The notes beneath the pieces were generated by a model. That model searched no databases, was not told where the DNA came from, and was given only the letters and a program-made list of their open reading frames with translations. From contig CAUYUJ010015726.1 in assembly GCA_963575745.1 (NCBI GenBank), positions 1,422,031 to 1,486,030 of the forward strand: DNA of 64,000 nucleotides, read 5' to 3'. Shown one piece after another: positions 10,765 to 34,278 of this stretch. A program made the translations under genes and the position numbers. The stretch comes from Prorocentrum cordatum (taxonomy: Eukaryota; Sar; Dinophyceae; Prorocentrales; Prorocentraceae). Position 1 is the stretch's first letter. Every line of letters starts with the position of its first letter.

Positions 10765-10767
10765 GGC

Positions 10768-11045
10768 TACTGCTTCGAGAATGGTGGTTCTTATGCTAGT
10801 TGCACCATAGGTACAGCTAGGTATAAGATACTTATAGCAAGGGATAAGTACCTAAGTATTTCTAACTATTTCTATGTGCCCTTAAGTATTTGTCTTGTCG
10901 CATAACTATACTTAGGTTAGTTATAAGTATTTCGATGATTATTAATGACGTTGGAAGATACTTGTAACTACCGCTAAGTTACTTACCCGTGCTGAGATGC
11001 AATATTTATAAGTAACATATATGTTACTTATAAGTAACTTATAAC
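10768..11045. repeat. left terminal inverted repeat and subterminal repeats
   Basis: The first 45 bases match the complement of 27050-27092 with few mismatches. Inward lie many AAGTA, TACTTA and CTTATAAG words, ending with a cluster of CTTATAAGTAAC around 11009-11045. Dense short subterminal motifs are where CACTA transposases bind in plant elements; by analogy these are candidate binding sites. Confidence 0.78.
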
Positions 11046-12573
11046 TTCCTTCCATCCCTCCTTCGCTTCTCTTCCCCTCCCGCCGCGCGCCCGCCCGCCG
11101 CGCCGCAGGGACGTCGCGGCCCGCGGCCCCCACGCAGAAGAGGACGAGAAGGAGGGCGAGGATGAGGACGAGGAGGAGGAGGAGGAGGGGGAGGAGGGAT
11201 GAGGAGGAGGAGGTGGATGTAGTTTTCAGGAACGATTTTCGGATTTGGGGAAATCTTTTTTTGGATTTGGTGAGGTTTTCTGGATTTGGGGAGGTTACCT
11301 GGATTTGAAGAGGTTTTTCAGGATTTGGGATTTGCCCATCGACCTGGAGCTCGTCGCGGCGCCGCCTGGTGGGTGCTCGCCGCGGTAGCGATGGCGATCG
11401 CTTGGGTGGGGAGGAGGGGGATGGGGAAGGTAGCGATGTCGATCGCTTGGATGGGGAGGAGGAGGAGAAGCGATGGCGATCGCTTGGGTGAGGAGGAGGG
11501 GGATGAGGAAGGTAGCGATGGCGATCGCTTGGAGGAGGAGGAGGAGGAGGAGGAGGAGGAGGAGGAGGAGGAGGAGGAGGAGGAGGAGGAGAAGCGACGG
11601 CGATCGCTGGGGGAGGTGAAGCGATGTCGATCGCTTGGAAGGAGGAGGATGAGGACGGGAAGGAGGAAGAGAAGCGATGGTGATCGCTTGGGGGAGGGCG
11701 GGGCGGGGGGAAGAGGACGAGGGGATAGCGATTACGATCGCTGGTCTTTTGTTTTCGCGCTTGCGGGCGCGCGGCGCGCTCCGCGCTTGCGGGCGCGCGG
11801 CCTCGCCGCGGAGGCGGAGTCGACGGCGGCGGCATTTGCGCCTTCGCCGCCGCTGGCGCCGCTGGCGGCGCTGGCGGCGCCTTCGCCGCCGCTGGCGCTT
11901 TCGCCGCGGCGCGCGCCGCCTTGGCCTTCGCCGCCTTCGCCGCCGCCTTCGCCTTCGCCGCCGCCCCCTTCTCCTTCTTCTCCTTTTTCTCCTTCTTCTT
12001 CTTCTTTTCCGCCTTCTCCGCCCTCAGCTGCGCATTTTCCGCCTGAAGGCGCGCCTGCTCCTCCCTCCGCAGCAGCTGCGCCCCCTGCGCCTCCTTCCTC
12101 AGCTGCGCGTTCTCCGCCTTCAGCTCCGCCTCCCGCCGCAGCGCCGCGTCCCTCTCGCCGATCGCGATCGCTAGCTCGCGCTCCGCCTCATTCGTCGTCG
12201 TCGTCGCCGCCGCCGTCGTCGTCGTCTCGTCGTCATCGTTTCCCGCCTCCTCCAGCCACAGCGAGAGCTGCACGGCGCGCTCTGTCTGCTCCGCGTTGAC
12301 AGTCTGCAGAGGCGGGGGGAGGGGGAGAGGGGCGGTGGAGTGAAGGGAGGAGGGGGTGGGGGGAGGGGCGAGGAGGGGGAGGAGGGGGAAGGATGAGGTG
12401 GAGGAGGAGGAGGAAGGGGAGGAAGCGGAGGAGGAGGATTCGGGGGAGAGCGATGGCGATCGCTGGGAGGAGGGGGTATCCGCCTCCGCGAGCTGCTGCA
12501 GCAGGTTGTCGCGCTGGCGCCTGAGCGCCAAAGCGCGAGCCCCCTGCGCGAGCTCGCGCGGAGCACCCCACAT
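10942..12573 (-). CDS. cargo gene 1: coiled-coil, Ala/Lys-rich protein
   Basis: ATG at 12573, minus strand, the only cargo gene so oriented. The first 230 residues have a Gln/Leu-rich start (RRQRDNLLQQLAEA), a Ser-rich linker, then an acidic-Thr run (DDDETTTT) and a long coiled coil (REAELKAENAQLRKEAQ, QAENAQLRAEKAEKKKK) followed by Lys/Ala repeats. Beyond about 11745 the frame runs through the intergenic AGCGAT dyads (seen as SDRHR peptides) and is unlikely to be functional, so the true end may lie near 11745. Cargo gene 7 shares the DDETTTT run and the LRAEN-type coil, suggesting paralogy. Upstream on its own strand both share AGATCACTG. Function unknown; a structural or DNA-associated role is a guess. 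Confidence 0.5.
   Translation of the reverse strand: MWGAPRELAQGARALALRRQRDNLLQQLAEADTPSSQRSPSLSPESSSSASSPSSSSSTSSFPLLPLLAPPPTPSSLHSTAPLPLPPPLQTVNAEQTERAVQLSLWLEEAGNDDDETTTTAAATTTTNEAERELAIAIGERDAALRREAELKAENAQLRKEAQGAQLLRREEQARLQAENAQLRAEKAEKKKKKEKKEKKEKGAAAKAKAAAKAAKAKAARAAAKAPAAAKAPPAPPAAPAAAKAQMPPPSTPPPRRGRAPASAERAARPQARKQKTSDRNRYPLVLFPPPRPPPSDHHRFSSSFPSSSSSFQAIDIASPPPAIAVASPPPPPPPPPPPPPPPPPPPPSDRHRYLPHPPPPHPSDRHRFSSSSPSKRSTSLPSPSPSSPPKRSPSLPRRAPTRRRRDELQVDGQIPNPEKPLQIQVTSPNPENLTKSKKRFPQIRKSFLKTTSTSSSSSLLPLLLLLLVLILALLLVLFCVGAAGRDVPAARRAGARREGKRSEGGMEGSYKLLISNIYVTYKYCISARVSNLAVVTSIFQRH
11381..11742. repeat. AGCGAT-N4-ATCGCT dyad cluster 1
   Basis: Eight dyads in 360 bases (about 11388, 11433, 11472, 11515, 11592, 11622, 11674, 11729), mostly followed by TGGG/TGGA and separated by GGA-rich DNA including a pure GGA run at 11530-11592. 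It lies 3' of cargo gene 1. Confidence 0.9.
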
Positions 12574-13110
12574 CGCGCCTCCGCGCCCCGCGCGCGCGAG
12601 CCCCGCGCGCCTCCACGAGGCAGAGCGGCTGCGCGCGGCGCTCAGTGATCTCCTTTATCATCATCCACCTTCCTTTCAGCGATCGACATCGCTTTCCTTC
12701 TCCTCATCTTTTTTCCTTCTCCTCATCGTCATCGCCGTCGCTTCACCTCCCCCAGAAGGAGGAGGAGGGGCGACGGGGGGAACAGCGATGGCGACCGCTT
12801 GGGGGAGGGGGGGAGGGGGGAGTAGGACGTGCACGGACCGAACCCTACGGGTTGCAAAAACAAGAGAGGAGGAGGAGGAGGTGGAGGAGGGATCATAGGA
12901 GGAGGGGGAGGGACGGGGGATGTAGCGACGGCGATCGCTTGTGTGAGGAGGGGGGGGATGGGGGGAGGTTGCGATGGCGATCGCCTGGAGGAGGAGGAGG
13001 AGGAGGAGAAGGAGAAGCGACAGCGATCGCTTGGGGGAGGGCGGGGAGGAGGAGGGAGAAGCAGAGAAGCGATACCGATCGCTAACTTAAGTAGGCGGCA
13101 ATCGTTTTGA
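12450..13110. repeat. AGCGAT-N4-ATCGCT dyad cluster 2, between divergent genes 1 and 2
   Basis: Dyads near 12451, 12677, 12789, 12925, 12973, 13018, 13068 and a half site near 13108, some with single mismatches. They occupy the divergent interval between cargo gene 1 (minus) and gene 2 (plus), the one place where two promoters would lie back to back. Otherwise the interval is GGA/TCC-rich and carries no gene. Confidence 0.82.
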
Positions 13111-13121
13111 ACGATCGCTGT

Positions 13122-13141
13122 GCATAGCCGTTGTCGGCTTT
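13122..13141 (+). promoter_or_regulatory. spliced-leader-like dyad before cargo gene 2
   Basis: CATAGCCGTTGTCGGCTTTG, compared with the dinoflagellate spliced-leader core AGCCATTTTGGCT, keeps TAGCC and GGCT with one extra base between. It lies 53 bases before the ATG. It may be a relict leader from a reintegrated mRNA or a promoter dyad. Confidence 0.4.
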
Positions 13142-13193
13142 GTAGTCGCGGGTGACGCCCGCGTGCGCGACGCGAGTGACGCCCGCGGGCGCC

Positions 13194-14678
13194 ATGGCGG
13201 CCGACCTGGTGAAGCAGCTGAAGGCCGCCAAGTCGGTCCTCGCCCAGATCGGGAAGAAGTCCGACGCGTACAAGGAGATCGCGGAGGCGCAGAGCGCCAT
13301 GGCGATGGCCATCATGGCGCCGTGGGCCTTCATCTCCGCCGAGGACTCGGCCATGCTGGTCCTGGAGATCGGCCAGATGCCTTTCGGCAAGAGGGCGCTT
13401 GCCACGCTGCTCGGCCGCGTCACGACGTTGGCGACGGCCTCAGCGCAAATGTTGGCCGCTAACGCGGCCGCAAGCGCGGAGCTGGCGGGGTCGGGCAGGA
13501 CGCCGATGCAGGACTTCTCGTCCATCCTCGCCTACCTCACGAAGAGGCAGTGGGACAAGATCCTGGACGAGCGCAACGACTTCATGGGTCGGGTTGCGGT
13601 CGTCCTGCAGGCTTGCAAATCCCTCGGGTGGCGCACGCTGCATGAGCCGACGGTTCAACTGGCGGCGTGCGTCGCCCTCCTCGTGGACGGCTTCGATTGG
13701 ACGATGCGCATGTGTCCGATGGCACAGTGGGGCTATTTCAAGCGGGCGAAAACATACGCCAAGAAGCTCCTGCCGTGGAAGTTGTGTAAGCAGCTTGCCG
13801 CGACCGAGCCGTCCTTCGTCAGCGAGCTCCCTGCGGACCCGACTGACATGCCGAAGGTGCACCCCGAGTGGTACTCGCGCGCGTATGGTGGCGGAGGGGA
13901 GGCCCCAGCAAACGAGTGCCCGCTGGACCGCACCATGTTGATGGTGCTGTGCGACGCGGTCCCGATGCGAGAGTCCAAGGCTCGCCTCAAGGCCACGTCC
14001 GATGGCAATCGGTCGTCCGTCGACATGGCGTTGCAGCTCGCGGAAAGGGCGATGACGATGCAGGGTGGCGGCCGCCAAGGTGCGCGAGACGGCGTGCCAT
14101 GCAGGCGTTGCACTCCGCAGCCCATTGCGCCCGCCACGGACGGCGCGATTCCGATCGGCGACACGGAGTCGGCGCCGCCGCCGACGACGCACAGCGCGGA
14201 GGAGGCCAGGGACAAGATCTTCGCGAAGCTCGGCGGCAAACAATGCCTGCCAGATGTGGCCAAGACGCCGCCGAGCGAAGACGAGTCGGAGGGCAGCGAC
14301 GGGGGCGACTCCGATAACAAGAGCGCCGACGGCGTGGAGGAGGCGGAGCCGCCGCCGCCGATGAAGAAGAAGCGCAAGGCCGCTGGCGACGGCCACCCCG
14401 CGCCCCCCAAAGCCAAGGCCAATGCGAAGAGGAAGAACAAGAAGAAGAAGAAGACTGAGGCCAAGCACGTGGGCGCGAAGGGGGTCAAGAAACCACCGAA
14501 ACCCGCATATGCGGTGGAATGGTCCCGCAACCAGGTCATGTGCCGCACGGGTATGAAAGGTCCAGGCCAGTCGACGGCCATCAAGTTCAGCGACCACGGC
14601 GGCAGCAGCGACAAGGCGATCGCTGCGGCTAAGAAGTGGGTGCGCAAACAGGAGAAGAAGCTCGGCATCCACACTTGA
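13194..14678 (+). CDS. cargo gene 2: helical protein with C-terminal AP2-like domain
   Basis: 494 residues from the ATG at 13194, chosen because it lies downstream of the leader-like dyad. Residues 1-280 are helical and non-repetitive (QLKAAKSVLAQIGKK, DFSSILAYLTKRQWDKI, LLVDGFDWTMRMCPMAQWGY). A disordered acidic then Lys-rich spacer follows (SEDESEGSDGGDSDN, RKNKKKKKTEAKH). The last 55 residues, VEWSRNQVMCRTG through IKFSDHGGSSDKAI and AAAKKWVRKQ, fit the AP2/ERF pattern of three strands and a helix found in plant, apicomplexan and dinoflagellate DNA-binding proteins and in some mobile-element nucleases. A sequence-specific DNA-binding role, perhaps on the element's own dyads, is an inference. 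The frame is intact. Confidence 0.68.
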   Translation: MAADLVKQLKAAKSVLAQIGKKSDAYKEIAEAQSAMAMAIMAPWAFISAEDSAMLVLEIGQMPFGKRALATLLGRVTTLATASAQMLAANAAASAELAGSGRTPMQDFSSILAYLTKRQWDKILDERNDFMGRVAVVLQACKSLGWRTLHEPTVQLAACVALLVDGFDWTMRMCPMAQWGYFKRAKTYAKKLLPWKLCKQLAATEPSFVSELPADPTDMPKVHPEWYSRAYGGGGEAPANECPLDRTMLMVLCDAVPMRESKARLKATSDGNRSSVDMALQLAERAMTMQGGGRQGARDGVPCRRCTPQPIAPATDGAIPIGDTESAPPPTTHSAEEARDKIFAKLGGKQCLPDVAKTPPSEDESEGSDGGDSDNKSADGVEEAEPPPPMKKKRKAAGDGHPAPPKAKANAKRKNKKKKKTEAKHVGAKGVKKPPKPAYAVEWSRNQVMCRTGMKGPGQSTAIKFSDHGGSSDKAIAAAKKWVRKQEKKLGIHT

Positions 14679-14769
14679 TCGGCAGGGGTGCTGCGACGAT
14701 GCAGCCTGCATGCGTGTGCTCGCACACGACTAGATAGCCGATTATGGCTATGAATAGGGAGTGGTGGAG

Positions 14770-15110
14770 GAGGGGCAGCGATGATGATCGCTTGGTGTAG
14801 GGATGGTTGTTCGGGGGGGTGCAGGGATGGAGTTGCATGACAGCGATGGGGATCGCTTGAGGTCGGTTGGGCAGGGCAGCGATGATGATCGATTGTGGTT
14901 GCAGGGATTGTAGATTAGTTTGCAGCGAGTGCAGATTGCAGCGATGGCGATCGCTTGGGGATTTCAGCGAGTGGAATTGCAGCTGTCGTGGAGATGGTGA
15001 TGGAGATTGCAGCGATGGCGATCGCTAGAGTGGACGTGGTGATGGGAGGGGAGGTGGATGAGGTGGAAGAGCAAGAGGCGGAGGAGCGATGGCGATCGCT
15101 GGGCATGTGC
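14770..15110. repeat. AGCGAT-N4-ATCGCT dyad cluster 3
   Basis: Six dyads (about 14780, 14843, 14880, 14940, 15013, 15087), the first ones with G or A substitutions in the spacer. It fills the interval between gene 2 and gene 3, which otherwise holds GTGG- and TTGCAG-rich DNA and no gene. Confidence 0.88.
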
Positions 15111-15140
15111 GCACATTGCGCACATCATTGCATGCATCAC

Positions 15141-15160
15141 ACTAGCCATTTGGGGCCCAG
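15141..15160 (+). promoter_or_regulatory. spliced-leader-like dyad before cargo gene 3
   Basis: ACTAGCCATTTGGGGCCCAG is the closest match in the window to the dinoflagellate leader core, sharing TAGCCATTT, the following GG and the terminal AG. It lies 65 bases before the ATG, after a GCGCACATCATTGCATGCAT stretch that is also found before gene 4 (16907-16930). Confidence 0.5.
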
Positions 15161-15224
15161 CAGGTGGCGCGCCAGCGCCTACACCAGGCCCAGCGCCTAC
15201 ACCTGCGCCTGCACCAGCGCCGCC

Positions 15225-16493
15225 ATGGCGCCGCCCCACAGCCGCGGCCGTCGCGATGCCGCCGAGGAGTTCTTCGCCTTCGCGAACGAGGCAGCGGGCG
15301 TCTTCGCAAACGCGGCGTTGGCTGCTCATGAGGAGGCGCCGCCCGAGGCCGCGGAGGAGCACGGGGAGGAGGCGCCGCCCGAGGCCGCGGAGGAGCAGGA
15401 GTCTCCTTTAACAGAGGCCGCCGCGAAGGAGCAGGAGGAGGCGTCCGAGGCGGGTGCGGAGGTCGAGACGCACGATGCGCCAGACGTGCTCCCGGAGATT
15501 GCGGCGTCGCCAGGCGAGGAGGGCGCGGAGGTCGAGGAACCCGCGGCGGCGGAGGGGCAGGCGGCGGAGGAGGAGGAGGAGGAGGAGGAAGCGGTGCCTC
15601 GCGAGGAGGTGCCCCTCGTCGAGGTCGTGTCCTCGCCGCAGGCGCGCGATCCTCGCGACAGCCGCTCGTCGGGCGGCCAGTCGGGCCGCTCGTCGCTGTC
15701 GCTCAGCGCGCCGCGGCCGTGCGTCTCGCGCCGCGATTTGGCGGCCGTGCGTCAGGCGGCAGCGGCTGCGGCGGCCGAGGAGTCAGCGGCCGCGCCGCCA
15801 GCGGCGGCTCCCGCGCCGCCCGCGCCGACGGCCGCGGAGCGCTCGCGGAACCGCAGCCCGCGCGCCCTCGACCCGCGCGCCAAGGGGTCGCAATGGCCTC
15901 GGGTGCCGCCCCACCCGCCTCTGGCGCCGCCCCCCCCTGAGGCCGTGGCCGCGGCGGCGTGGGCGAGGGTCTACGAGGAGCGCGCGGCTGGCCAGGGGGC
16001 GGGCTACACCGAGGAGCAGGTCGCCGACCTGCGCGGCGAGGCTGCGGCGGCGAAGGCCCTCGGCTTGCAGTGGTGGCAGCGCGGCCCTGCGGGCCCAGCC
16101 GAGGGGGGGCCCGAGACGTGGCGCGGCCAGCGGCACCGCGCCAACACCAAGCAGTGGGCCAACCGCGGGGGGAGGAACAGGGAGTACTTCGCGAAGAAGT
16201 ACGGCGGCGGCGCGCCAGGCAAGGTCCCCGCTGGGTCGCGCCCCGACCCCCGCAGCGGCGTCAAGGGCGGCGGCAAGGGCGGCGGCAAGGGCGAGTCCCT
16301 GGCTCCCCCCCCCGCGGGGCCGCCCCCGCCCGCCGCGGCGCCGCGCGCGGTGCGCCCGCGCATTGCGTCGCCCGCGCGCCCGCTGGCAACGGCGCCGACG
16401 CCAGGGGCAGCGCCGCGGCCATCGACAGCGCCGCTGCCGCCGTGGCGCAGAGGCGTCCCCGCCGCCGTCCCGCCGCCGTCGCGGCTGACGTGA
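15225..16493 (+). CDS. cargo gene 3: acidic/basic low-complexity protein
   Basis: 422 residues from the ATG at 15225. Residues 5-30 look ordered (RRDAAEEFFAFANEAAGVFA); then imperfect acidic repeats (EEAPPEAAEEHG, EEEEEEEEAVPREEVP), a Ser-rich segment and Ala/Pro runs. About residues 270-360 are the most protein-like: WARVYEERAAGQG, ALGLQWWQRG, and a Trp/Arg/Asn-rich patch QWANRGGRNREYFAKKYGGG, followed by a GGGKG basic tail. No known domain is recognised. The frame is intact despite extreme GC content, which argues for selection. Flanked by gene 2 and gene 4 in the same direction, each with its own upstream dyads. Confidence 0.5.
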   Translation: MAPPHSRGRRDAAEEFFAFANEAAGVFANAALAAHEEAPPEAAEEHGEEAPPEAAEEQESPLTEAAAKEQEEASEAGAEVETHDAPDVLPEIAASPGEEGAEVEEPAAAEGQAAEEEEEEEEAVPREEVPLVEVVSSPQARDPRDSRSSGGQSGRSSLSLSAPRPCVSRRDLAAVRQAAAAAAAEESAAAPPAAAPAPPAPTAAERSRNRSPRALDPRAKGSQWPRVPPHPPLAPPPPEAVAAAAWARVYEERAAGQGAGYTEEQVADLRGEAAAAKALGLQWWQRGPAGPAEGGPETWRGQRHRANTKQWANRGGRNREYFAKKYGGGAPGKVPAGSRPDPRSGVKGGGKGGGKGESLAPPPAGPPPPAAAPRAVRPRIASPARPLATAPTPGAAPRPSTAPLPPWRRGVPAAVPPPSRLT

Positions 16494-16589
16494 GGCGCGC
16501 GGCGCCCTGGCGCGGCGCCGCTGGCGCCTGCGCTGCAGGCGCGGCGCGCTGGGGGTGCGGCGCCTCTTCGCGCCGTGGGCGCGCATAAG

Positions 16590-16890
16590 CGATCTACATG
16601 CGATTGCCGCTCCAGGCGCTGTGGCAAAACGACCGCTTGTGTGTGCAATAGCGATTACGATCGCTTGTGTGTGCAATAGCGATTACGATCGCTGAGGGGA
16701 TGGGAGGTGTCGCTGAAGGGATGTGAGGATGAGGGCCGACGACTAACGATTACGATGTGTGGATGGGGATGTGAGGATGGGGATGGCTATTACGATCGCT
16801 GGCTGAGGGGATGTGACGACTTCTGGCGACGACTGACAAAGGCGACGACCGACGACGACAAAATTGGGTGGGGGAGCGATTCCGATCGCT
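16590..16890. repeat. AGCGAT-N4-ATCGCT dyad cluster 4
   Basis: Dyads with a TTACG or TTCCG spacer near 16648, 16677, 16791 (half) and 16877, plus weaker forms near 16587. The spacer type differs from the GGCG/GTCG of other clusters. No gene is visible between 16494 and 16928. Confidence 0.8.
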
Positions 16891-16928
16891 GGCCTTGTGC
16901 TCACAGCGCACGCATCATTGCACGCATT

Positions 16929-16948
16929 GCATGGCCATTGTCGGCTCC
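16929..16948 (+). promoter_or_regulatory. spliced-leader-like dyad before cargo gene 4
   Basis: GCATGGCCATTGTCGGCTCC keeps GCCATT and GGCTC of the leader core with one extra base. It lies 138 bases before the ATG of gene 4, in a 5' region homologous to that of gene 3. Confidence 0.42.
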
Positions 16949-17085
16949 ACGCGCAGCGCGCCCATCGGAGCGGATCGCCTGCGCCCAGCGGGGCGTGTCT
17001 CCATCGGCGCCCGCCCGCGCCGACGCCAGCGCCGACACGAGCGCCGTCGTCAGCACCGACGCCAGCTCCGTCGCCAGCACCGACC

Positions 17086-18054
17086 ATGTCGTCCGACGTC
17101 GCGGCAGCCTGCCCCGTCAAGACAGAGGAGGAGTGGTACACGGTCGGCTGCCCCGTCAGCAACTGCAAGGCCAAGTGCTACAAGGAGAGCCACGCGGAGT
17201 GCTTGGAGTGGCTCTTCAACCACTTGGCGACGTCGACGGCGGAGAGCCACAAGTTTCTCAAGACGGCGAGCGGGCCCAACTTAGAGGAGATCAACCGCCT
17301 CCTGGACGACGCCAACGCGGAGCGCCTCAGCGACAGCGAGGTGGCGGCGTGGCAGAAGCACCAGGCCGAGAAGGCGGCGGCAACCGCGGCCAACCCCTAC
17401 AAGACGGCGCCCGCCGCCAGCGCAGGGGCCGCCGCCGCGGCCGCCGCCAGCGCAGGGGCCGCCAGCAGTCGCGGGCGCGATCGCCGCGCGCGATCGCCTG
17501 CGCGCAGGCGCAGCAGCAGCCGCAGCCACCGCAGCCACCGCGGCCGCCCCGCGCCGCGCACGCCGCCCCGCGGCCGCGGAGACGACCGCGCCCCCGCGGC
17601 GGCGGCCAGCCTGGCGACTGCGGCGGCGCACAAGCTGCAGCAGACGGCGGAGCAGCTGCAGCAGCAGCAGCAGCAGATGCGGCAGCAGCAGCAGCATATA
17701 CAGCAGCAGCAGCAGCTACAGCAGCATATGCAGTTGCGGGTGCAATCGACTGCAAGCCTGACGGGGAAGGCTGCGCCGTCCGCGGCGCCCGCGGCGATGA
17801 ACCTGATCATGGCGCCCATGACAGGAGACGTCTCGCTGCCCGACGTGCCCCCCGAGACCGAGTTCAGGCTCAGCAAGGCGCGGGCCGATGCGCTCATGGA
17901 CTGCCTGAAGCGGGCGGAGCGCTGCGCCAAGGTGGCGAAGGAGACGTGCCTCAAGGCGTCTCAGGCGTTCGAGCAGGAGGAGACGTCCCTGAGGGCGGCG
18001 AGGGAGCAGGTCGCCGAGACGATGGGCGCGTCGGTGCAGCTCAGCGGGCTCTGA
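17086..18054 (+). CDS. cargo gene 4: Cys/His N-terminus, SR-like and Gln-rich protein
   Basis: 322 residues from the ATG at 17086. Residues 8-45 hold a possible zinc site (C-x10-GC-x4-C-x3-C-x5-H-x2-C with a following FNHL). A helical region follows (FLKTASGPNLEEINRLLDD), then an Arg/Ser-rich block (RRARSPARRRSSSRSHRS) reminiscent of SR proteins, a Gln-rich coil from CAG repeats (17640-17730), and an ordered C-terminus (LSKARADALMDCLKRAERCA, FEQEETSLRAAREQVAET). The mixture suggests a nucleic-acid-associated protein, but no family is recognised. The frame is intact. After the stop the DNA is GC-rich and then enters dyad cluster 5. Confidence 0.55.
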   Translation: MSSDVAAACPVKTEEEWYTVGCPVSNCKAKCYKESHAECLEWLFNHLATSTAESHKFLKTASGPNLEEINRLLDDANAERLSDSEVAAWQKHQAEKAAATAANPYKTAPAASAGAAAAAAASAGAASSRGRDRRARSPARRRSSSRSHRSHRGRPAPRTPPRGRGDDRAPAAAASLATAAAHKLQQTAEQLQQQQQQMRQQQQHIQQQQQLQQHMQLRVQSTASLTGKAAPSAAPAAMNLIMAPMTGDVSLPDVPPETEFRLSKARADALMDCLKRAERCAKVAKETCLKASQAFEQEETSLRAAREQVAETMGASVQLSGL

Positions 18055-18244
18055 ACAGTGGCAGCGGGCTTTGGCGCTGCTCAGCGGGCTCTGGCGCTTC
18101 CCAGCGACATGTGGGAGGCGACCCTGGAGCCCGACATCATCTTCGTCGCGGCTCGCTGGCGCTCTGTGGCGTTCGCCGCCTGCGGCCGCGGCCGCGGATC
18201 GCGCCGCCGCATGCTTATGAATATGAAATGAGGAGAAGGAGCAG

Positions 18245-18790
18245 GAGAATGAGGATGATAGCGATGTCGATCGCTGGGTGGGGGGTGGGGGGTAGCGATG
18301 TCGATCGCTTGGAGGAGGATAAGAAGGAGGAGGAGGATAGCGATGTCGATCGCTGGGGGAGAGGGGATAGCGATGTCGATCGCTGGGGGGAGGAGACGAA
18401 GGAGGAGGAGGAGGAGAAGGATACCGATGTCGATCGCTGGGGGTGAGGGGGGATAGCAATGCCGATCGCTGGGGGGAGGAGGATGAGGAGAAGTAGAGGG
18501 AGGATGAGGAGGATAGCGATGTCGATCGCTGGGGGGTGGGGGGTGGCGGGGGTGGGGTGGGGTGGGGGAAGGTGGATCGCGATGCCGATCGCTGGGGGAG
18601 AATGAGGAACAGGGGGAGCGATTGCGATCGCTTGGGGGAGGTAGCGATGTCGATCGCTTGGGGAAGAATGAGGATGATGAGACGGAGGGGAAGCGATGGT
18701 GATCGCTTGGGGGAGGTAGCGATGCCGATCGCTTGAGGGAAGAATGAGGATAATGAGCAGGAGAGGCATCGATGGTGATCGCGTGGGGAG
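18245..18790. repeat. AGCGAT-N4-ATCGCT dyad cluster 5 (densest)
   Basis: About fourteen dyads spaced 25-50 bases apart, many with a GTCG or GCCG spacer, in GGA-rich DNA. The cluster runs up to the central inverted repeat. Frames here give only Ser/Asp-Arg-His peptides from the dyads themselves, so there is no gene. Confidence 0.92.
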
Positions 18791-18810
18791 GTAGTTACCC
18801 TGGTAACTAC

Positions 18811-19139
18811 CGTAACTATCGCAAGTTACAACCAATGTTATCATTTTGTTATCCTTTTGTTATCCTTTGGTATCCTTTGTTATCCTGGTCACTGGGTCAG
18901 ATAGGATAACAAAAGGATAACAAAAAGATAACACTGGGTCAGATGGGATAACATGTTATCCTAACTGACCCAGTGTTATCCTTTTGTTATCCTAACTGAC
19001 TGGGTCAGATAGGATAACATGGGTCAGATAGGATAACATGTTATCCTAACTGACCCAGGGATCAGGATAACAAAGGATAACAAAGGATAACAAAAGGATA
19101 ACAAAAGGATAACATTGGTTGCCACTTACGATAGTTATG
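18811..19139. repeat. central long inverted repeat of GGATAAC iterons
   Basis: Arms of at least 95 bases pair about a centre at 18975: CGTAACTATCG (18811) with CGATAGTTATG (19139), ACCAATGTTA with TAACATTGGT, CTGGGTCAG with CTGACCCAG. Each arm is an array of GGATAAC/GTTATCC iterons at 8-10 base intervals. Two perfect 16-base palindromes GGATAACATGTTATCC lie at 18946-18961 and 19031-19046, each between CTGGGTCAG-type arms. The centre lies within 50 bases of the midpoint of the transposon. A replication origin, resolution site or protein-loading platform is possible; none can be chosen from sequence alone. Confidence 0.9.
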
Positions 19140-19238
19140 CCACTTATTCGAGTAAGTATCGACATCGAGCGATACTCACCGCTGCCTCCCCGAGCGATGC
19201 TGATCGCTGACGCGCGTAGCTTACCTGATAACGGCACT

Positions 19239-19259
19239 ACGCAACATGCGCGGCTCAAG
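19239..19259 (+). promoter_or_regulatory. spliced-leader-like end before cargo gene 5
   Basis: ACGCAACATGCGCGGCTCAAG ends with GGCTCAAG, the exact last eight bases of the dinoflagellate spliced leader; the first half matches poorly. It lies 70 bases before the ATG of gene 5. Confidence 0.4.
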
Positions 19260-19328
19260 AGCCAGCGACCGAGGTCGCTCGACTATCGGTGAGAGCGCAC
19301 CGCCAACGGTCGCGGGGCGTTGCGAGCG

Positions 19329-22073
19329 ATGGCCGCGGGATGCGGCGGCGCGCTGACCAGCGCGGTCGACGAGGCGGCGGCGAGCGAGGACAGCCAGGCG
19401 ACGTTGCAGTTGGCAGGCGCCGCGGGCGCAAGCGTCCCCGAGGACGCCAAGCTGCTGGACATTCTCGCGGTGGATCTCGGTCTCGAGGGCGCGACGGGCG
19501 CGGGGGGCGGAACCGCGGAGGCGGAGGCGCCCGAGAAAAAGGAGGTGGCGGCTGAGGAAGGCGAGGAGGCGACCGAGGGGGACGGAGCCGCGGAGGCGGA
19601 GGCGTCCAAGGAAGAGGAGGTGGATGCTGAGGGAAGCGAGGATGCGGCCGAGCGGGGGCCGATGAGGAGGCCAGCCGCCGCCAGACGCAGGCGCAAGCCG
19701 AAGAAGGTCAGGGCGAAGTACGCAGGCCCGAAGGGCCCGCCGCCCAAGGCCACGGCCAAGGTGAACGCCAAGGCCGTGGCAAAGGAGAAGGCAATGGCAG
19801 TGGCCGCAGCCAAGAAGGCGCCGCCCAAGTTCGCCGACATCGCGAAGTGGATGCAGCCCACTTCGAGGGCGAAGGCGAGCGGTGGTGTGCCCACCCTGAG
19901 GCTCGGCGAGAGTGCGCCCTCGCCGAAGGACGGCGATGGGGCGCTGCAGGTGGGCAAGGCGAAGGCGAAGGCGAAGTCGAAGATGAAGGCGACGGTGCAA
20001 GAGTTGTCGTCGCCGCCGTCTCGTCCGCGAAGGTGCACCTCGGACACCGAGTCCCAGGCGTCGGCGGGCATGGGCGAGGAGCCGACGGCAGGCGCCTCGC
20101 CGAAGTTTCGAGTCGGATCGTTCGCGGCGCTCAGCTCGCCTGACAAGCGCGCAGCACCGCTCTCGCTCGACGCCGTCGAGAACGAGTTCCTCTGCGACAG
20201 GTGCGACCAGCCGTGCGACGTCATGAAGGCGTACCCAGTGCGGATGACGAAGAAGGGCCAGATCTACAGGTGCGCGTTGTGCAGCACGCGGGGGGTGCAA
20301 GCGAATCGGGCGCCCGAGTGGAAGGAGATGGCCGCGAAGCTGAAGGACTTCAGCATTGAGGAGAGGGTCGGGTTCTGGAAGAAGATCCGCGCCTGCAGCG
20401 GCCAATCAAGCGTCAAGGCCATGGCCCAGGCGACCTTGAAGGCGATCCACGAGAAAGGGACGCGGGCGGGCAAGCGAGGCGGCTACTACCCGCTGAGCTG
20501 GTACAAGAGGCAAGGCTTCCCGTGGAGAAGGATCAGGAAGACGTGCACGGACACGTTGAACCATGCCGTGATGGGGTTGTGCTACAAGGTGGACATCCAC
20601 GAGATCGAGAAGTGGGAGGCCAACATCGCGCGGCGTGAGAATGAGTATGGGGCATCGCGCGCCGCCGAGGCCGAAGACGGGCTCGAGGCTTCAGGCTCAG
20701 ACGACAAGGAGCCCTGCACCAGAAAGACGCCCGCATCCGCGCAAGCGGGGGCCGAGATCGCCGACGACAGCGCCGAGGAGGGCGATGAGGAGAGCGCCGA
20801 GGACCCCGACAGCACCGCTGATGTCGATGATGCCGGGGAGTCCGACAGCACCGAGGGCTCGGAGCAGTTGCAGAGTGGCAGCGGTGACTCGGACAGTTTT
20901 GGCCTCGAGACCTCGGGCGAGGACTCCATGGGGGACGGCGACGGGTCGCACGGCGGACAGCCGCCTCCAGTGACTCCTGGCGGATCGAACGATGAGAGCA
21001 GCGACGACGGCACGCCACCCCCCCAGAACAGAAAAATGCAGATCAAGGACAAGCCCAAGGGGGGCAAGAGCTCTAAGGACAAGGATAAGGAGAAGGAGAA
21101 GGAGAAGTCCAAGAGCAAGGCCGCCGATAAAGATAAGGACGCTGATAAGGACAAGGGAAAGTCCAAGACAAAGGACACCGATAAAGATAAGGACAAGCAT
21201 AAGGACAATGACAAGTCCAAGAGCAATGGCAAAGACAAGGCTAAGGATAAGGATAAAGACAAGGAAAAGGTCACGGCCAAGAGCAAGGGCGCCGATAAAG
21301 ATAAGGACGCTGGTGAGGGCAAGGATAAGGACAAGAGCAAGGGCAAAGATAAATATAAGGAGAATGATAAGGACAAGAGGGCGAACAATGACAAGTCCAA
21401 GAGCAATGGCCCTGATAAAGATAAGGGCAAGCATAAGGCCACGAAAAAAGACAAGGACAAAACCGACGACAAGGCCGACGGTAAGGACAAGAGCAAGGGC
21501 AATAAACATGATAAGGATAAGAGCAATGCCAAGGTCGATGGCAAGACCAAGGGCAAGAAGCGGGCGAACGAAGGGGCAGCCGAATCTTCGACAAAGAAGA
21601 TGAAGAAGCAGAAGCCACCGACCAGCTCCTCGCAGAGCGGCAGCGACATCGAATCGGGGAGCTCGTCGCCTGCGCACCCGCGCGTCGGCGAGACCGCCAA
21701 GGAGCGCGCGGCGCGCGAGAAGCAGGAGAGGAAAGAGCAGAGTAAGAAAGACAAGGAGGCGCAGCAGCAGAAGCTCCTGGCCACGCGTACCCTGAGCAGG
21801 ATTGTGGCGCCCATGTACAAGCTCGAGTCGGCGCTCAAGTGCGACGGGGTCGGGAAGATCCCCGAGGCTACGCTGGTTCACGCGAAAAAGCTCATGGACA
21901 CGCTGACCAAGATGAAGAAGGTCGCCCATAAAGTCAGCAGTGGCAAGGTCGCACCTTCGGAGTTCACTTGGTCCGCCCAGGATGTCAGCGACATGTCGAC
22001 GCAGGCGGCGGCGCAGAGCACTCTGGTGATGTCGATGGCCAAGGCGTACCTTGTGACTGCGAAGTCCTCGTGA
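19329..22073 (+). CDS. cargo gene 5: large Lys/Asp-repeat protein with zinc-binding centre
   Basis: 914 residues from the ATG at 19329, the largest intact cargo gene. The N-terminus is acidic (EKKEVAAEEGEEATEGDG) and then Lys-rich (RRRRKPKKVRAKYAGPKG). About residues 280-440 form the ordered core: a four-cysteine site (FLCDRCDQPCD and YRCALCSTRG), EWKEMAAKLKDFSIEERVGF, GGYYPLSWYKRQGFPWRRIR and NHAVMGLCYKVDIHEIEKWE. An acidic spacer leads to about 190 residues of KDKDKDKSK repeats, in which the DNA is an AAGGACAA-type minisatellite (21060-21560). The C-terminus is a coiled coil (REKQERKEQSKKDKEAQQ) and a helical end. The architecture suits a scaffold on nucleic acid. No known family is recognised. 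Confidence 0.6.
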   Translation: MAAGCGGALTSAVDEAAASEDSQATLQLAGAAGASVPEDAKLLDILAVDLGLEGATGAGGGTAEAEAPEKKEVAAEEGEEATEGDGAAEAEASKEEEVDAEGSEDAAERGPMRRPAAARRRRKPKKVRAKYAGPKGPPPKATAKVNAKAVAKEKAMAVAAAKKAPPKFADIAKWMQPTSRAKASGGVPTLRLGESAPSPKDGDGALQVGKAKAKAKSKMKATVQELSSPPSRPRRCTSDTESQASAGMGEEPTAGASPKFRVGSFAALSSPDKRAAPLSLDAVENEFLCDRCDQPCDVMKAYPVRMTKKGQIYRCALCSTRGVQANRAPEWKEMAAKLKDFSIEERVGFWKKIRACSGQSSVKAMAQATLKAIHEKGTRAGKRGGYYPLSWYKRQGFPWRRIRKTCTDTLNHAVMGLCYKVDIHEIEKWEANIARRENEYGASRAAEAEDGLEASGSDDKEPCTRKTPASAQAGAEIADDSAEEGDEESAEDPDSTADVDDAGESDSTEGSEQLQSGSGDSDSFGLETSGEDSMGDGDGSHGGQPPPVTPGGSNDESSDDGTPPPQNRKMQIKDKPKGGKSSKDKDKEKEKEKSKSKAADKDKDADKDKGKSKTKDTDKDKDKHKDNDKSKSNGKDKAKDKDKDKEKVTAKSKGADKDKDAGEGKDKDKSKGKDKYKENDKDKRANNDKSKSNGPDKDKGKHKATKKDKDKTDDKADGKDKSKGNKHDKDKSNAKVDGKTKGKKRANEGAAESSTKKMKKQKPPTSSSQSGSDIESGSSSPAHPRVGETAKERAAREKQERKEQSKKDKEAQQQKLLATRTLSRIVAPMYKLESALKCDGVGKIPEATLVHAKKLMDTLTKMKKVAHKVSSGKVAPSEFTWSAQDVSDMSTQAAAQSTLVMSMAKAYLVTAKSS

Positions 22074-22204
22074 GGGCCCGCCGCCATCAGCTACAGCGCT
22101 GGGACCAGCGTGCGGCCGTGCGGTAGCAGCAGGCTTTGACGCCGCTCGCCGCCCCGCTTTCGCGCCCCGCCCCGCAGCTGGTGGGTGGCGCACATGTGTA
22201 TAAA

Positions 22205-22402
22205 AAAAGCGATGGGGATCGCTGGGGTGAAGCGATGGCGATCGCTTGTGGAGAGGGGAGCGATGGGGATCGCTGGGGTGAAGCGATGACGATCGCTTAG
22301 GGAGAGGGGAGCGATGGGGATCGCTGGGGCGAAGCGATGGCGATCGCTTAGGGAGAGGGGAGCGATGGGGATCGCTGGGGTGAAGCGAGGGCGATCGCTC
22401 GG
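22205..22402. repeat. AGCGAT-N4-ATCGCT dyad cluster 6, regular tandem array
   Basis: Four near-identical units of about 51 bases, each holding one GGGG-spacer and one GGCG/GACG-spacer dyad (22208 through 22385). This is the most regular cluster and leads directly into the 5' region of the transposase gene. Confidence 0.9.
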
Positions 22403-22441
22403 GCGGGCGTTGGCGAGGATGGGCTCGCGATGGGGGCTAGT

Positions 22442-22462
22442 TGCTCAGCCGTTTCGGCTCGA
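22442..22462 (+). promoter_or_regulatory. spliced-leader-like dyad before the transposase gene
   Basis: TGCTCAGCCGTTTCGGCTCGA keeps AGCC-x-TTT-x-GGCTC of the leader core and lies 43 bases before the ATG at 22505. The whole block 22391-22503 is repeated before gene 8 at 26152-26264 with roughly one mismatch in ten by eye. Confidence 0.48.
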
Positions 22463-22504
22463 CTCGCGAGTGACGCGCGTCGCTCGTGGCCAAGCGGCGG
22501 CGCG

Positions 22505-24541
22505 ATGCCCAAGCGGCGGCGCGATGGCCCCGAAGCGGGGTCGGGCATCCGATGTCCGCGACCTCAGGCGGCCAAGCGGCGTCGGCTATCCGATGCCATC
22601 GCTACGCATGGCGTATCTGGCAAGGCCCTCGTTCGCATCGCCAAGAAGCTCGCGAAGCCTGGCCATGCGCAAGAGCTGACGGCTTACGCGGTCCAATCCA
22701 CCATTGAGGGCGTATTCGACGACGTCGGGGCGACAATCGAATTGCCCATGCAAGATAACGAGCCGCCCTTCGCTTGGAAGCTCGCCAGAATCGACAAGCT
22801 CCTGCGGTATGTTTGCAAGGCCAGCCCCGTGTAAAGTGAGCTTCTCGCGGTGGTCGCGAACCGCGTCCGCGGCGCGCCGCTCTCGCTGGTGCTGTACATG
22901 GACGAGGTGACACCAGGCGACGCGCTGGCCCTGAGGCACGATCGGAAGTTCTGGATGATCTTCTTCACGTTCCTGGAGTTCGGGGCTGACATGCTATGGA
23001 GGGAAGAGCTGTGGCTACCGCTGGGGTGTCTGCGAACGAAAGCGAGCAATCGCGTGGACGGCGGCATCTCCTGTGCCACTCGACTCCTCATCAGGGAGAT
23101 GTTCTTCGGATCCTCCAGGCTCGCGGGAGCTGGCGCGCACGTGGAGCTGGCCAACGGCACTCCGATGCTGGTGCGGGCGCGCCTCTCCAATCTTCTCGCA
23201 GACATGGATGCGTTCAAAGGCATTCTGCGTTTGCGGGGTGCCAACGGCTGGAGGCCTTGCTTGCGATGCAAGAACGTGATCTTGAAGGGCGGTTCCGTCG
23301 ACGGCGACGGCGGCTACTTCGTCGACACCTGTTGTCACGAGCACGCGCGCTTCGATCGTCATTCAGACGCCGACGTGTGGAAACTGTGGGACGACCTCGC
23401 CGCAGCGGCGGCGACCGCGGGACAGCCTGGCCACATGACGAAGGGCAACTTCCAGAAGCTCGACAAAGCCAGCGGCTTCAACTACCATCCCAATGGCTTG
23501 CTGGAGGATAAGGAATTGCGGGCGATAATGAAGCCGTCCGCCATGACGTATGACAGCATGCACAACCTATGGAGCAATGGCACCGTCGGCTGGGAGGTGT
23601 TCGCGTTTGTGAAGGCGTGCCGGAGAAAAGCTGGCATCGGATGGCCCGAGCTTCACGCGTTCACGCGGCGCTGGCAGTTCCCGAGGTCGCACGGCAGAAC
23701 GGCAAAACATATGTTCACGCCTGGGCACGAGACCGCGTGCAAGAAATCATTCAAAGCAGGCGCCAGCGAGCTGATCTCGACCTTCTTCGTCCTTTTGGCG
23801 TTCGCCGAGGAGCGCGCCGTCCGCATCGGGTCGCTCGGGCGCGAAATAGCGTCCCTTCGGGCGTGCGGCCTGCTGGCGGACGCGTTCCTGAAGGTCAAGC
23901 GCGGGCGTGCCCCCCCTCGCAGTGACTTCATTGCAGCGGCTGAAGTCCATCTCAACTTGCACAAGCAGGCGTACGGCACCAAATACGTGAAGCCCAAACA
24001 CCACTACGTGTTTCACAACGCGGAGCAGGAGCCGAAAGAGCTCGACTGCTTCGTGACGGAGCGCCACAATAAGGTGGCAAAGGCGGTGGCCGAACCAGTG
24101 GAGAACACCGCGCGCATGGAGGCCACGACGCTCGCGGGCTGCGTATTGCAGCAAGTGCGGCAACTCGAGAAGATGGGGCCGACGGGCAACTCGCTGGTGG
24201 GAGCGCGTGCCGAATCTGACGGGTTGCGCTCCGTAGTCGGGGCCGCCGACGTCTCCGTGGCCAGGGGGCTGCGCTGGGAAGGGAACGCCTACAACGTGGG
24301 CCAGGTGGTTCGCTCGCGCGGCGGCGAGGTGTTTATCATCGACGCGTGCGCGGAGATTTCTGGCGAACTGCACATCGTCGCCCGCGGGATCGAGATCTCA
24401 ACGGGCGCGTGCGGCCTCAGCACTGGCAGCGTGGTGAACGAGCTCCTCGTCATCAAGATGTCCGACGCTGACCTGGATGGCGCTGTCTGGGCGTGGCGCG
24501 TGAAGAGCAACGGTGACTATGTCATCGCGCACGCGCGCTGA
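22505..24541 (+). pseudogene. CACTA/TNP2-like DDE transposase with one in-frame stop
   Basis: One frame of 678 codons from the ATG at 22505, broken only by TAA at 22832-22834; the reading continues in the same frame. The N-terminal 110 residues are basic then helical (PKRRRDGP, KALVRIAKKLAKPGHAQEL). The rest shows a TNP2 layout: Asp133 in LYMDEVTPGD, a MDAFKGILRLRG segment with CLRCKN, Asp350 in YDSMHNL (compare the DxMH of TNP2), a conserved KPKHHYVFHN, and Glu519 in FVTERHNK. These are the probable D-D-E residues of the CACTA/CMC superfamily. It would cut and join the element ends. The stop fits a CAA to TAA change; readthrough cannot be excluded. A KDZ-type transposase is the main alternative. 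Confidence 0.65.
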
Positions 24542-24584
24542 GAAACATATGGAAACATGCGCCGCGCCGCGGTGTGTGTGTGTG

Positions 24585-24850
24585 TGGGGAGCGATGTCGA
24601 TCGCTGGGTGAGGTGAAGCGATGCCGATCGCTTGGGTGAGGAGATGAGAGGAGGAGGATGAGGATGAGGAGGAGGAGGAGGGGGAGGGAGAAAACGATGC
24701 CGATCGCTGGAAGGAGGGGGGGACGGAAAAGACAATCGAGCGATGCCGATCGCTGGGTGAGGTGAAGCGACGTCGATCGCTTGAAGGAGGAAGAGGAGGA
24801 GGAGGAGGTGGCGGAGGAGGGAGGATAGCGATATCGATCGCTGGAAGATG
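24585..24850. repeat. AGCGAT-N4-ATCGCT dyad cluster 7
   Basis: Six dyads (about 24591, 24617, 24694, 24741, 24767, 24827) in GGA-rich DNA between the transposase and cargo gene 7. No gene is visible. Confidence 0.9.
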
Positions 24851-24950
24851 GGCGGGGGGTGGGAGGAGGAAAATAAGATCACTGCGCGCAGCGCGCAACC
24901 GTTCAGCTTTGGCGCGCTGCTGCCCCTTGGGCTCGCGCGGGGCAGGCGCG

Positions 24951-25209
24951 ATGCTGCCCCTGGCGGCCGCGCGCAAGCGCGCCTCGAGCTGGCCGAAGGC
25001 GGCCGCGCACGACGACGAGACGACGACGACGATGCGACGACGGCGACGAAGACGGCGACGAATGATGCGAGCTTGCCCGAGCGGCTGCTCGGGGAGGTGG
25101 AGCAGCTGCGCGGGGAGGTCGAGCAGCTGCGCGCGGCGAACGCCCAGCTGCGGGCGGAGAAGGAGGGGGCGGATAAGACGACGACGACGACGACGAGACG
25201 ACGACGAGA

Positions 25210-25261
<52 letters not shown>

Positions 25262-25665
25262 GGCGGCGACGACGACGGCGGCGGCGGCGGCGACGACGAC
25301 GACGACGACCCCCCCAGGTGGCGCGGCACTTGGCCCTCCAGATCGACATGCGCGACGTCGAGCTGGATCGGGCCGCCGAGCTGCTGAGCGTCGCGCGCCG
25401 CCGCGCCGCGGTGCATGCGGCGGCGCTGGCGCAGCTCAAGCAGGACGCGATGACGATCATCCGCCTGCAGAGGCTGTACGACGCCCCCGAGGCGGAGGCG
25501 GCCATGGCGTCGGCGGTGGTCATGGCCGACGCCCTGACGAAGCCGCCTCCGCCGCCGTGGTCCCCCCGTGAGGAGGGGCTCGCGGGCGGCGACGGGCGCC
25601 CAGGGTCGTCCGCGGACGCCCTGACTGAGCCGCCCCCGCCGCCGCGGCCTGCGCCCCCGCAGTGA
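24951..25665 (+). pseudogene. cargo gene 7: coiled-coil protein, frame broken by GAC repeats
   Basis: An ATG at 24951 opens a short frame with HDDETTTT. A second frame carries a coil (LLGEVEQLRGEVEQLRAA, NAQLRAEKEG), and a third, after a (GAC)n run at 25190-25312, carries an ordered C-terminus (LALQIDMRDVELDRAAELL, ALAQLKQDAMTIIRLQRLYD) ending at 25665. The DDETTTT and LRAEN parts match cargo gene 1. Triplet-repeat slippage by non-multiples of three probably broke the frame; a low-complexity functional reading is less likely. A leader-like CAACCGTTCAGCTTTGG lies at 24896-24912. Confidence 0.45.
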
Positions 25666-25699
25666 GGCGGCGCGAGGCTGCGCGCGCCAACAAGAAGCT

Positions 25700-26165
25700 T
25701 GGGGGGGGATATCGATGTCGATCGCTTGGGGGAGGTAGCGATGGCGATCGCTTGGAGGAGGAGGAGGAGGAGGAGGAGGAGGAGGAGCAGGAGGAGCAGG
25801 AGGAGCAGGAGCAGGAGGATGAGGAGGAGCAGGATCTGCATGGGCAGCCAGGGGGCTGCGGAGGGAGGAGGAGGAGTAGCGATGCCGATCGCGATGTGCA
25901 TGGGCAGCCAGTGGGGCCGCGGGATTTGCATAGGCAGCCAGGGGGGCTCGCGATCTCGATCGCCGCGAGGAGGAGGAGGAGGAGGATGAGGAGCAAGAGA
26001 GCGATGCCGATCGCTGGGGGAGGCGAAGCGATGTCGATCGCTTGGAAGGGGGAGGAGGCAGGAGAAGGAGGAAGAGGAGGATGACGATGATGAGGAGGAG
26101 GAGAGCGATGTCGATCGCTCGGGCGCGGGTGGGAATATGGGTGGAGCGATGGCGATCGCTCGGGC
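25700..26165. repeat. AGCGAT-N4-ATCGCT dyad cluster 8
   Basis: Seven dyads (about 25709, 25737, 25885, 26000, 26028, 26106, 26145) with GGA/GCA runs and three copies of a GGCAGCCAG-type phrase (25848, 25905, 25935). It precedes cargo gene 8. The long Pro/Ser frames on the minus strand here are composition artefacts. Confidence 0.88.
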
Positions 26166-26200
26166 GGGCGTTGGCGACGATGGGCTCGCGATGACGGCGA

Positions 26201-26220
26201 TTGCTCAGCCGTTTCGGCTC
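26201..26220 (+). promoter_or_regulatory. spliced-leader-like dyad before cargo gene 8
   Basis: TTGCTCAGCCGTTTCGGCTC, identical to the dyad before the transposase gene and set in the same 110-base context. It lies 71 bases before the ATG at 26291. Confidence 0.48.
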
Positions 26221-26290
26221 GCCTCGCGAGTGACGCACGGGGCGCTCGCGGCCAAGCGACGGCGCGCGCGCGCGCAGGAGGGGGCGCGTC

Positions 26291-26762
26291 ATGGACGATC
26301 TCCCCTCGGAACCGCTGCCACCTGGGCTGGTCGGCGCGAAGCCGTCCAGTGTCCCGCTGCCGCGAGGCGGCCCGTGGCCGAATATGGCCAACGCGAAGTT
26401 CTTCAAGATGCCGTCGCCCGCCGCTTTCGTTGCGGCCACCTCCAAGGACGCGGCGCCGCCGCCGCCACCCAAGCGGCCGCGCCTCGAGGTTGCAGCCGTC
26501 GGCCGAGAGGGAGCAGGCAATGGAGGTCCAGCGTTCGTGGGAGTTCGAAAGCGCCACCGTGCGCCCTCCCACCGAGGATGAGCTGGTGGAGCTGCTCGCG
26601 TCCCTGGGCGGGGATGGGTGGAACGACTCCAGCGTCCTCAGGCGGCTCCAACAGCAGGCCGAGCTGCAGGCGTTGAGCGAGGCGGAGGCGATCTGCTTGA
26701 CCGCCTTCCGCGACGGGCAGGGCGGCGAGGCGGCCCCTGAGGGTGAGCCCCCTGCGCGGTGA
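26291..26762 (+). pseudogene. cargo gene 8: small Pro-rich protein, one frameshift
   Basis: The ATG at 26291 opens a frame with a plausible N-terminus (DDLPSEPLPPGLVGAKPS, NAKFFKMPSPAAFVAAT, PPPPKRPRLEV with a nuclear-localisation-like KRPR). Near 26505-26520 the coding character switches frame; the new frame has MEVQRSWEFESATVRPP, EDELVELLASLGGDGW and RRLQQQAELQALSEAEAI and ends at 26762. The helical C-terminus starts with its own ATG at 26520, so two short proteins are possible, but one gene with a single-base shift fits best. No family is recognised. Confidence 0.5.
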
Positions 26763-26914
26763 GGAGGCCGCGCGTGCACTGAGGACGCGGCCGCGCGCGG
26801 TGAGGAGGCCGCGCGCCCCGCCGCGCTCATCGCTCTCCTCCCCCCCTCCCCCCCCTCACAGCGATCGACATCGCTCCTCCTCCTCCTCCTCCCAAGCGAT
26901 CGCGATCGCTTCAT

Positions 26915-27092
26915 TTCCCTAAGTAACTTATAAGTATCTTATAGTGTTAGCTTAAGTAACTTAAGAACATCAACTTAAGTTACTTATAAGTATCTTAGTA
27001 AGTACCCATAAGTAGCTCATGTAAGTAGCTATGTTACTTGCGATACTTATACATAGGGTGCAACTAGCGTAAGAGCCACCATTCTCGAAGTG
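26915..27092. repeat. right terminal inverted repeat and subterminal repeats
   Basis: AAGTAACTTATAAGTATCTTA words (26918-27050) lead into the terminal 45 bases, which complement 10768-10815. The end reads CCATTCTCGAAGTG, that is CACTTCGAG inward, the CACT-type terminus of CACTA elements. GGC follows at 27093. Confidence 0.8.
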
Positions 27093-32900: not shown

Positions 32901-32990
32901 GAATCCTAAGGATTCCTAGGGATTCCTGAGGCATCCTTAGGCATCCTTAGGAATCCATAGGAATCCTAAGGATTCCGAAGGATTCGCCTG
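32901..32990. repeat. GGAATCCTAAGGATTCC palindromic repeat
   Basis: Overlapping copies of GGAATCCT, AAGGATTCC and GGCATCCTTA, so that the block is partly self-complementary. It adjoins the CCTCAG satellite. Confidence 0.75.
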
Positions 32991-34276: not shown

Positions 34277-34278
34277 TC

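Follow-up and report, generated by a model that had tools for sequence, protein, structure and literature searches.

What is the block of some 16 kb that lies within satellite DNA in the genome of the dinoflagellate Prorocentrum cordatum, and to which kind of element does it belong? We addressed this question in a stretch of 64,000 nucleotides, hereafter the window (C14877:1422031-1486030 of a 4.13-Gb assembly with 21,875 contigs), in which an initial annotation, made from the letters alone, had proposed a CACTA-type transposon carrying unknown genes at 10768..27092. Comparison of copies strongly supports that the 16-kb element is a discrete transposon with a set of uncharacterised genes. It is very probably a copy, now defective, of a family of 16-kb cut-and-paste DNA transposons that is young and high-copy and belongs to a Prorocentrum-type dinoflagellate. 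The element lies where it had been placed, but its true limits are 10773 and 27090:

10773..27090, + strand: entire transposon, defective copy, 16,318 bp, delimited by comparison of copies
10771..10772, unstranded: left target-site duplication, TG (2 bp duplicated in 21 of the 27 copies compared)
27091..27092, unstranded: right target-site duplication, TG (same count)
10773..10813, + strand: left terminal inverted repeat, starting CTTCGAGAATGGTGG; left end 98-100% identical in the best 40 of 121 candidates
27050..27090, - strand: right terminal inverted repeat, pairing with the left end
10829..11040, unstranded: left subterminal region with TTATAAGTA/TACTTA words
26920..27048, unstranded: right subterminal region with TTATAAGTA/TACTTA words

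Copies of the element across the genome

The element ends in CTTCGAGAATGG...CCATTCTCGAAG, and the inverted ends seen initially held up on alignment: 37 of 41 bases match between 10773-10813 and 27050-27090, giving a score of 62, where 500 shuffles reached no more than 27. Repeated subterminal motifs are present in both orientations, and the enrichment of AAGTA/TACTT words was likewise borne out, with 11 occurrences in 10773-11060 and 10 in 26905-27090 where Markov models predict 2.1 and 1.9.

We searched the genome with the left 133 bp of the element. From the best 40 left ends, 31 copies were examined: ten as 20-kb stretches, twenty by their two end regions, and the window itself. Of the 30 fetched copies, 26 have an inverted right end (27 of 31 when the window is counted), in agreement with the inverted pairing proposed initially. 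It lay 11.0-17.1 kb away in nine of the ten long stretches, the element match breaking off in the tenth (C1559), and within the stretch 15.9-17.3 kb inward in 17 of the 20 copies read at their ends. Element sizes were 16.1-17.1 kb except for C2348, an 11-kb (11.0 kb) deletion derivative. A search of the genome with the homologous transposase protein P0001 scored the best 62 of 3964 candidates and gave 63 matches; of the 40 left ends, 36 have a transposase in the same orientation at a distance of 8-30 kb inward, in 34 cases at 11.5-12.3 kb. Among the four left ends lacking one, C2348 carries the deletion, and C18600 and C3577 are too close to a contig end.

Copies are closely related. C16321, C3158, C19964, C17758 and C19329 are mutually 99.6-99.8% identical across 16.2 kb, C17925 is 99.2-99.3% identical to those five, and a second group (C20758, C18900 and C2348) is about 97% identical to the first. 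The family is young and high-copy.

Ends and target sites

To define the ends, we aligned the 27 copies, counting the window, in which both are present. The constant part starts with CTTCGAG and stops with CTCGAAG, and the same two bases flank both sides in 21 copies (CG in 10, TG in 6, CA in 4 and AA in 1); the duplication is 2 bp and usually pyrimidine-purine (YR). A 3-bp duplication at the constant boundary was found in none of the 27. All 31 left flanks have a purine at -1, and all but one of the 31 have a pyrimidine at -2; C stands at -3 in 20 of 31 and G at +3 in 19 of 27, counts that are not all independent, some flanks being related. This base composition suggests a C-YR-G target site. 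The proposed GGC duplication belongs to the satellite, and TG takes its place in the window; GGC had been picked up because the boundary had slid into a repeat match, GGGCTA. The CACT/TACTG ends of the initial annotation likewise included flank letters, the CACT of the window being flank CA plus CTTCGAG. The 27 copies rule out CACTA ends as well as a GGC duplication.

Removal of the element together with one duplication gave a perfect 11-bp satellite at the C17925 site and a 38-bp period at 94% at C7825. In the window, the joined site has an 8-bp period at 74% and is in phase, in agreement with the earlier claim that the satellite rejoins. The accompanying idea of an empty site gained in part from this, in that joined flanks restored satellite phase at several sites. 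Joined sites exceeded the shuffle level for tandem repeats in 12 of 21 cases, against 110 of 400 random window positions; since some sites are related, an insertion preference for tandem repeats is only suggestive.

These sites bear on the possibility that the block is a host gene cluster that was segmentally duplicated and lies between repeats by chance. Flanks of 150-200 bp are indeed common to C17871 and C3716, to C1559 and C20758, to C15639, C1559b and C21821, and to C3158 and C19964. Most flanks, however, differ from copy to copy right up to the base at which the inverted end begins and carry 2-bp duplications, and satellites come back into phase at several sites. We regard such a duplication as extremely improbable. 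Mosaic flanks, common on one side only, were seen for C1559, C20758, C15639, C21821, C3158 and C19964, and could reflect recombination between copies or misassembly.

Several observations weigh against the interpretation as a transposon family of this kind. The right end was not in the stretch read in three of the 20 copies fetched by their ends, and the left end of C21821 has no transposase among the 63 matches listed and is otherwise unexplained. Six of the 27 copies lack the 2-bp duplication: C3158 has its left but not its right flank in common with C19964, C21821 has its left but not its right flank in common with C15639 and C1559b, C17871 and C3716 represent one duplicated site, C11115 adjoins an assembly gap, and for C21233 no explanation was found. 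With boundaries shifted by at most 5 bp, longer matches of 3-8 bp, mostly in repeats, appeared at six of the first 10 sites (C17925, C17758, C19329, C20758, C2348 and the window). Finally, ratios of nonsynonymous to synonymous substitution (dN/dS) between copies ranged from 0.3 to 1.8 in pairs with dS >0.01 and give no proof of selection within the family.

The transposase

22384..22504, + strand: transposase leader, near-identical to the ORF7 leader
22505..24541, + strand: transposase gene, with one in-frame stop here; open part 22835-24541

The initial annotation had placed a transposase at 22505-24541. The frame does start at 22505 and bears the signature of the CMCT clade, but in the window copy it is interrupted by an in-frame stop directly before 22835. 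Homologs P0001-P0007, of which P0007 is truncated, are 31-92% identical and alignable over most of its length. Conserved in order are a D in YxDE(V/I)TPG, a D followed by GA(N/S)GxxPCxxC, DxMH, PKHHxxxH and ER. The series D, D, C(2)C, DxMH, H(3-4)H and E is present in all eight sequences, except that the truncated P0007 lacks the first D; the catalytic residues are presumably among the conserved D, D and E. In PMC12730594, to which our comparisons with CMCT elements refer, this clade comprises EnSpm/CACTA, Mirage, Chapaev, Transib, Plavaka, ESTA and Lanisha, and its layout is D, D and E, the second D being separated from the E by C(2)C and H(3-4)H. By motif layout, the predicted transposase would belong to this clade.

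No Pfam transposase model matched any of the eight family sequences; TNP2 (Transposase_21) was absent from them at E <=5, remote kinship being beyond the reach of a Pfam scan. The transposase consensus had no Pfam match whatever at E <=10. As to the RNase H-like catalytic fold of the CMCT clade, PDB searched by sequence gave nothing significant.

A virus-derived or virus-like mobile element, such as a polinton or a giant-virus insertion, would also be large, with many genes and inverted ends. In the frames scanned, Pfam gave matches to viral domains at chance level only, all below their cut-offs; the transposase and ORF1 have no relatives in IMG/VR contigs, and tblastn found no viral or prokaryotic relatives in IMG/VR or GTDB contigs. 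With the CMCT-type layout and the 2-bp duplication also against it, a viral origin is scarcely credible.

Among the listed transposase matches, 61 are 87-92% identical and two (C10402 and C11869) 67-68%. No internal stop was present in 43 of the 46 listed matches of >=2090 bp, a share that refers to the best-scoring matches. The window copy itself is probably non-autonomous, because its transposase has a stop and its ORF7 and CC2 frames are interrupted. Both the transposase and ORF1 are conserved in distant homologs, which suggests that these two genes are under selection.

Seven further genes

Large coding frames inside the element, as reported initially, were confirmed. Besides the transposase we distinguish seven genes:

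11758..12573, - strand: CC1, coiled-coil-like protein, 272 amino acids compared; a longer frame extends to 10942
13194..14678, + strand: ORF1, 494 amino acids, conserved family; matched in 10 of 10 fetched copies
15225..16493, + strand: ORF2, 422 amino acids; frame backed by P0017
17086..18054, + strand: ORF3, 322 amino acids; frame backed by P0017
19329..22073, + strand: ORF4, 914 amino acids, conserved ends around a Lys/Asp-rich repeat region
24952..25665, + strand: CC2, coiled-coil-like protein, frame interrupted here
26291..26762, + strand: ORF7, frame interrupted here; a single open frame of 282 amino acids in C18900 and 264 in C20758

In the ten copies fetched at length, ORF2, ORF3, ORF4 and CC1 were, like ORF1, matched in all ten, the transposase and ORF7 in nine and CC2 in eight. 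Gene order was identical, and all the gaps fall in C1559 and C2348. Matches to ORF4 were partial in C2348 and those to CC1 partial in C17758 and C2348 and split in two in C18900. Individual copies have breaks in some frames, and in group A the main matches to ORF2 are just 76-80% identical to the window. The annotation had expected gene content to be common to different copies, and truncations aside this is what we found. It had also taken the extra genes for cargo. The gene set stands, but cargo is less likely than core: because ten copies of two subfamilies keep the same genes in the same order, the seven genes look like core equipment rather than captured cargo. A capture of host genes was considered and rejected, as no Pfam match above the curated cut-off was obtained for the extra genes in the frames scanned.

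In five frames, GC is 0.80-0.92 at third and 0.47-0.66 at second positions, which fits coding. ORF1, whose homologs are 52-99% identical, had been described as AP2-like, for which Pfam gave no support: none of 10 family members, nor the C-terminal consensus, matched AP2, the low-scoring match being YL1 in five of the 10 (best E 0.019). Residues 250-480 of ORF4 have homologs at 99% and 47% identity. Paired cysteines of ORF4, which bear on the zinc binding first proposed, are present in the window and in P0018; by eye, Arg replaces the second Cys of both pairs in P0019, a protein annotated as Prorocentrum cordatum, and no Pfam zinc family matched ORF4. CC1 and CC2 lie in opposite orientations near the two ends and have a coiled coil and an acidic stretch in common, with 38.9% identity over part of their length, a likeness weakened by low complexity. 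For CC2, solely sub-threshold coiled-coil models were found (bZIP_1 at E 0.041, for instance), and a low-complexity frame matched Mucin at E 0.0022, below the curated Pfam cut-off.

Pieces of the element also occur in P0017, a predicted KH-domain protein of Prorocentrum cordatum encoded on a 628,083-bp contig. Stretches of this protein match ORF1, ORF2, ORF3 and ORF7 in that order, each identical or with one or two residues differing by eye, while its KH part is absent from the window. These near-identical stretches indicate that another copy lies in or beside the P0017 gene. P0017 is either an exonised transposon or an annotation artefact, the pieces being used as exons by the cell or by the gene caller.

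Spacers, leaders and a foldback

The initial annotation did not include the following features, the common leaders or the defective state of this copy:

11387..26910, unstranded: near-palindrome AGCGATNNNNATCGCT, 46 exact copies, mostly in intergenic spacers
18792..19158, unstranded: foldback of 367 bp, arms of 120 nt, 86% complementary; in 10 of 10 fetched copies
26145..26290, + strand: ORF7 leader

All 46 exact occurrences of AGCGATNNNNATCGCT in the window lie inside the element, as do all 66 with up to two mismatches; in nine other copies, 433 occurrences fall within the element, and the 37.7 kb of flank has none. Outside hand-set coding intervals lie 45 of the 46 (binomial about 5e-20). 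The middle of the motif reads GNCG in 27 of 46, and its final base is G in 44. Since single-arm changes are mostly uncompensated, only one of 20 variants being fully paired, a putative DNA-binding site is weakly favoured over a conserved hairpin. Neither a match in Rfam for the window nor the spacer motif pair in IMG/VR was found.

The leaders of the transposase and ORF7 are identical in 110 of 123 aligned columns (score 95; shuffles reach 24), a match showing that spacers have been exchanged or duplicated. Between ORF3 and ORF4, the foldback is rich in AGGATAACA/TGTTATCCT repeats, and could represent either a fixed structure with a regulatory role or a nested element inserted long ago.

Relation to known transposons

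The size, the subterminal repeats and the CMCT-type motif layout would also be expected of a canonical CACTA (EnSpm) transposon whose cargo had been captured from the host, and large CACTA elements exist, such as the 20.5-kb Tgmt* of soybean (PMC2613891, on which the Tgmt* comparison relies). Against it stand the CTTCGAG ends, the lack of a 3-bp duplication at the constant boundary in all 27 copies and the unmatched TNP2 model, and the extra genes, which reach no curated Pfam threshold in the frames scanned and are common to two subfamilies, are unlike recent captures. We consider this explanation improbable, and the CACTA membership first proposed is not upheld given the ends, the 2-bp duplication and the absence of a Pfam transposase match in eight sequences. 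The element does resemble plant CACTA elements (En/Spm, Tgmt*) in its inverted ends, subterminal words in two orientations, large size and possible second DNA-binding protein. It differs from them in lacking CACTA ends, a 3-bp duplication and a detected TNP2 domain, and in having separate, apparently unspliced genes (continuous frames).

Within the CMCT clade, ends are CA...TG in most cases, exceptions being allowed, and duplications are 2-5 bp (PMC12730594). The element fits in its motif layout and 2-bp duplication; unlike most members it ends 5'-CTT...AAG-3', and it departs from the clade in its YR duplication, absence of a Pfam match, eight genes and interspersed near-palindromes. PlavakaA of fungi, with 5'-TGT..ACA-3' ends and 2-bp duplications (PMC12730594), is of the same clade and has the same duplication length, but differs in ends and host and has no detectable sequence match. 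Zisupton and its kin (KDZ) have an 8-bp target-site duplication (PMC12730594) and were rejected on the 2-bp duplication found here. It is conceivable, if doubtful, that the element represents a separate superfamily-level lineage of CMCT type, a modular eight-gene unit in which the AGCGATNNNNATCGCT arrays lying between the genes would be joints and control sites by way of which genes and leaders would be swapped between elements, much like integron cassettes.

Flanking DNA

A composite GGCTATAG / CCCGGGCA satellite makes up the flanks. Three GGCTATAG-type arrays follow one another in 9703-10769; two are followed by a CCCGGGCA-type array, and that of the third comes after the element. A CTAGGACCCCTACAGAAGCAAGCTCTGA-bearing stretch occurs at about 10370 and again at 27270. 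Further away, a GCCTCA hexamer array of 1.3 kb and then a 73-bp tandem repeat occupy 32990-34681. All ten neighbouring large frames were without a Pfam match at E <=0.01.

Proposed mechanism and significance

The anatomy of the element strongly supports cut-and-paste transposition, putatively by a CMCT-type enzyme. In the mechanism we propose, the transposase would cut at the CTTCGAG ends and insert the element at C-YR-G sites, staggered by 2 bp. At least one of the other proteins, with ORF1 and ORF4 as the best candidates, may bind the TTATAAGTA words or the AGCGATNNNNATCGCT arrays and act by analogy like TNPA of plant CACTA elements. The AGCGATNNNNATCGCT arrays might be element-wide control or RNA-processing units between genes, and copies shortened by deletion, like C2348, would depend on mobilisation in trans.

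Transposons have been named as one contributor to the huge size of dinoflagellate genomes (PMC10666404 and PMC11453091). We found no published description of this element, nor of a large autonomous-type DNA element in dinoflagellates, in literature that mostly excludes subscription journals. The family has left ends that are almost identical in at least 40 places, and most frames in the best-scoring transposase matches are intact. Through it, several 'dark' gene families (ORF1, ORF4 and the transposase) acquire a home and a role that can be tested, and a predicted host protein contains parts of the family as exons.

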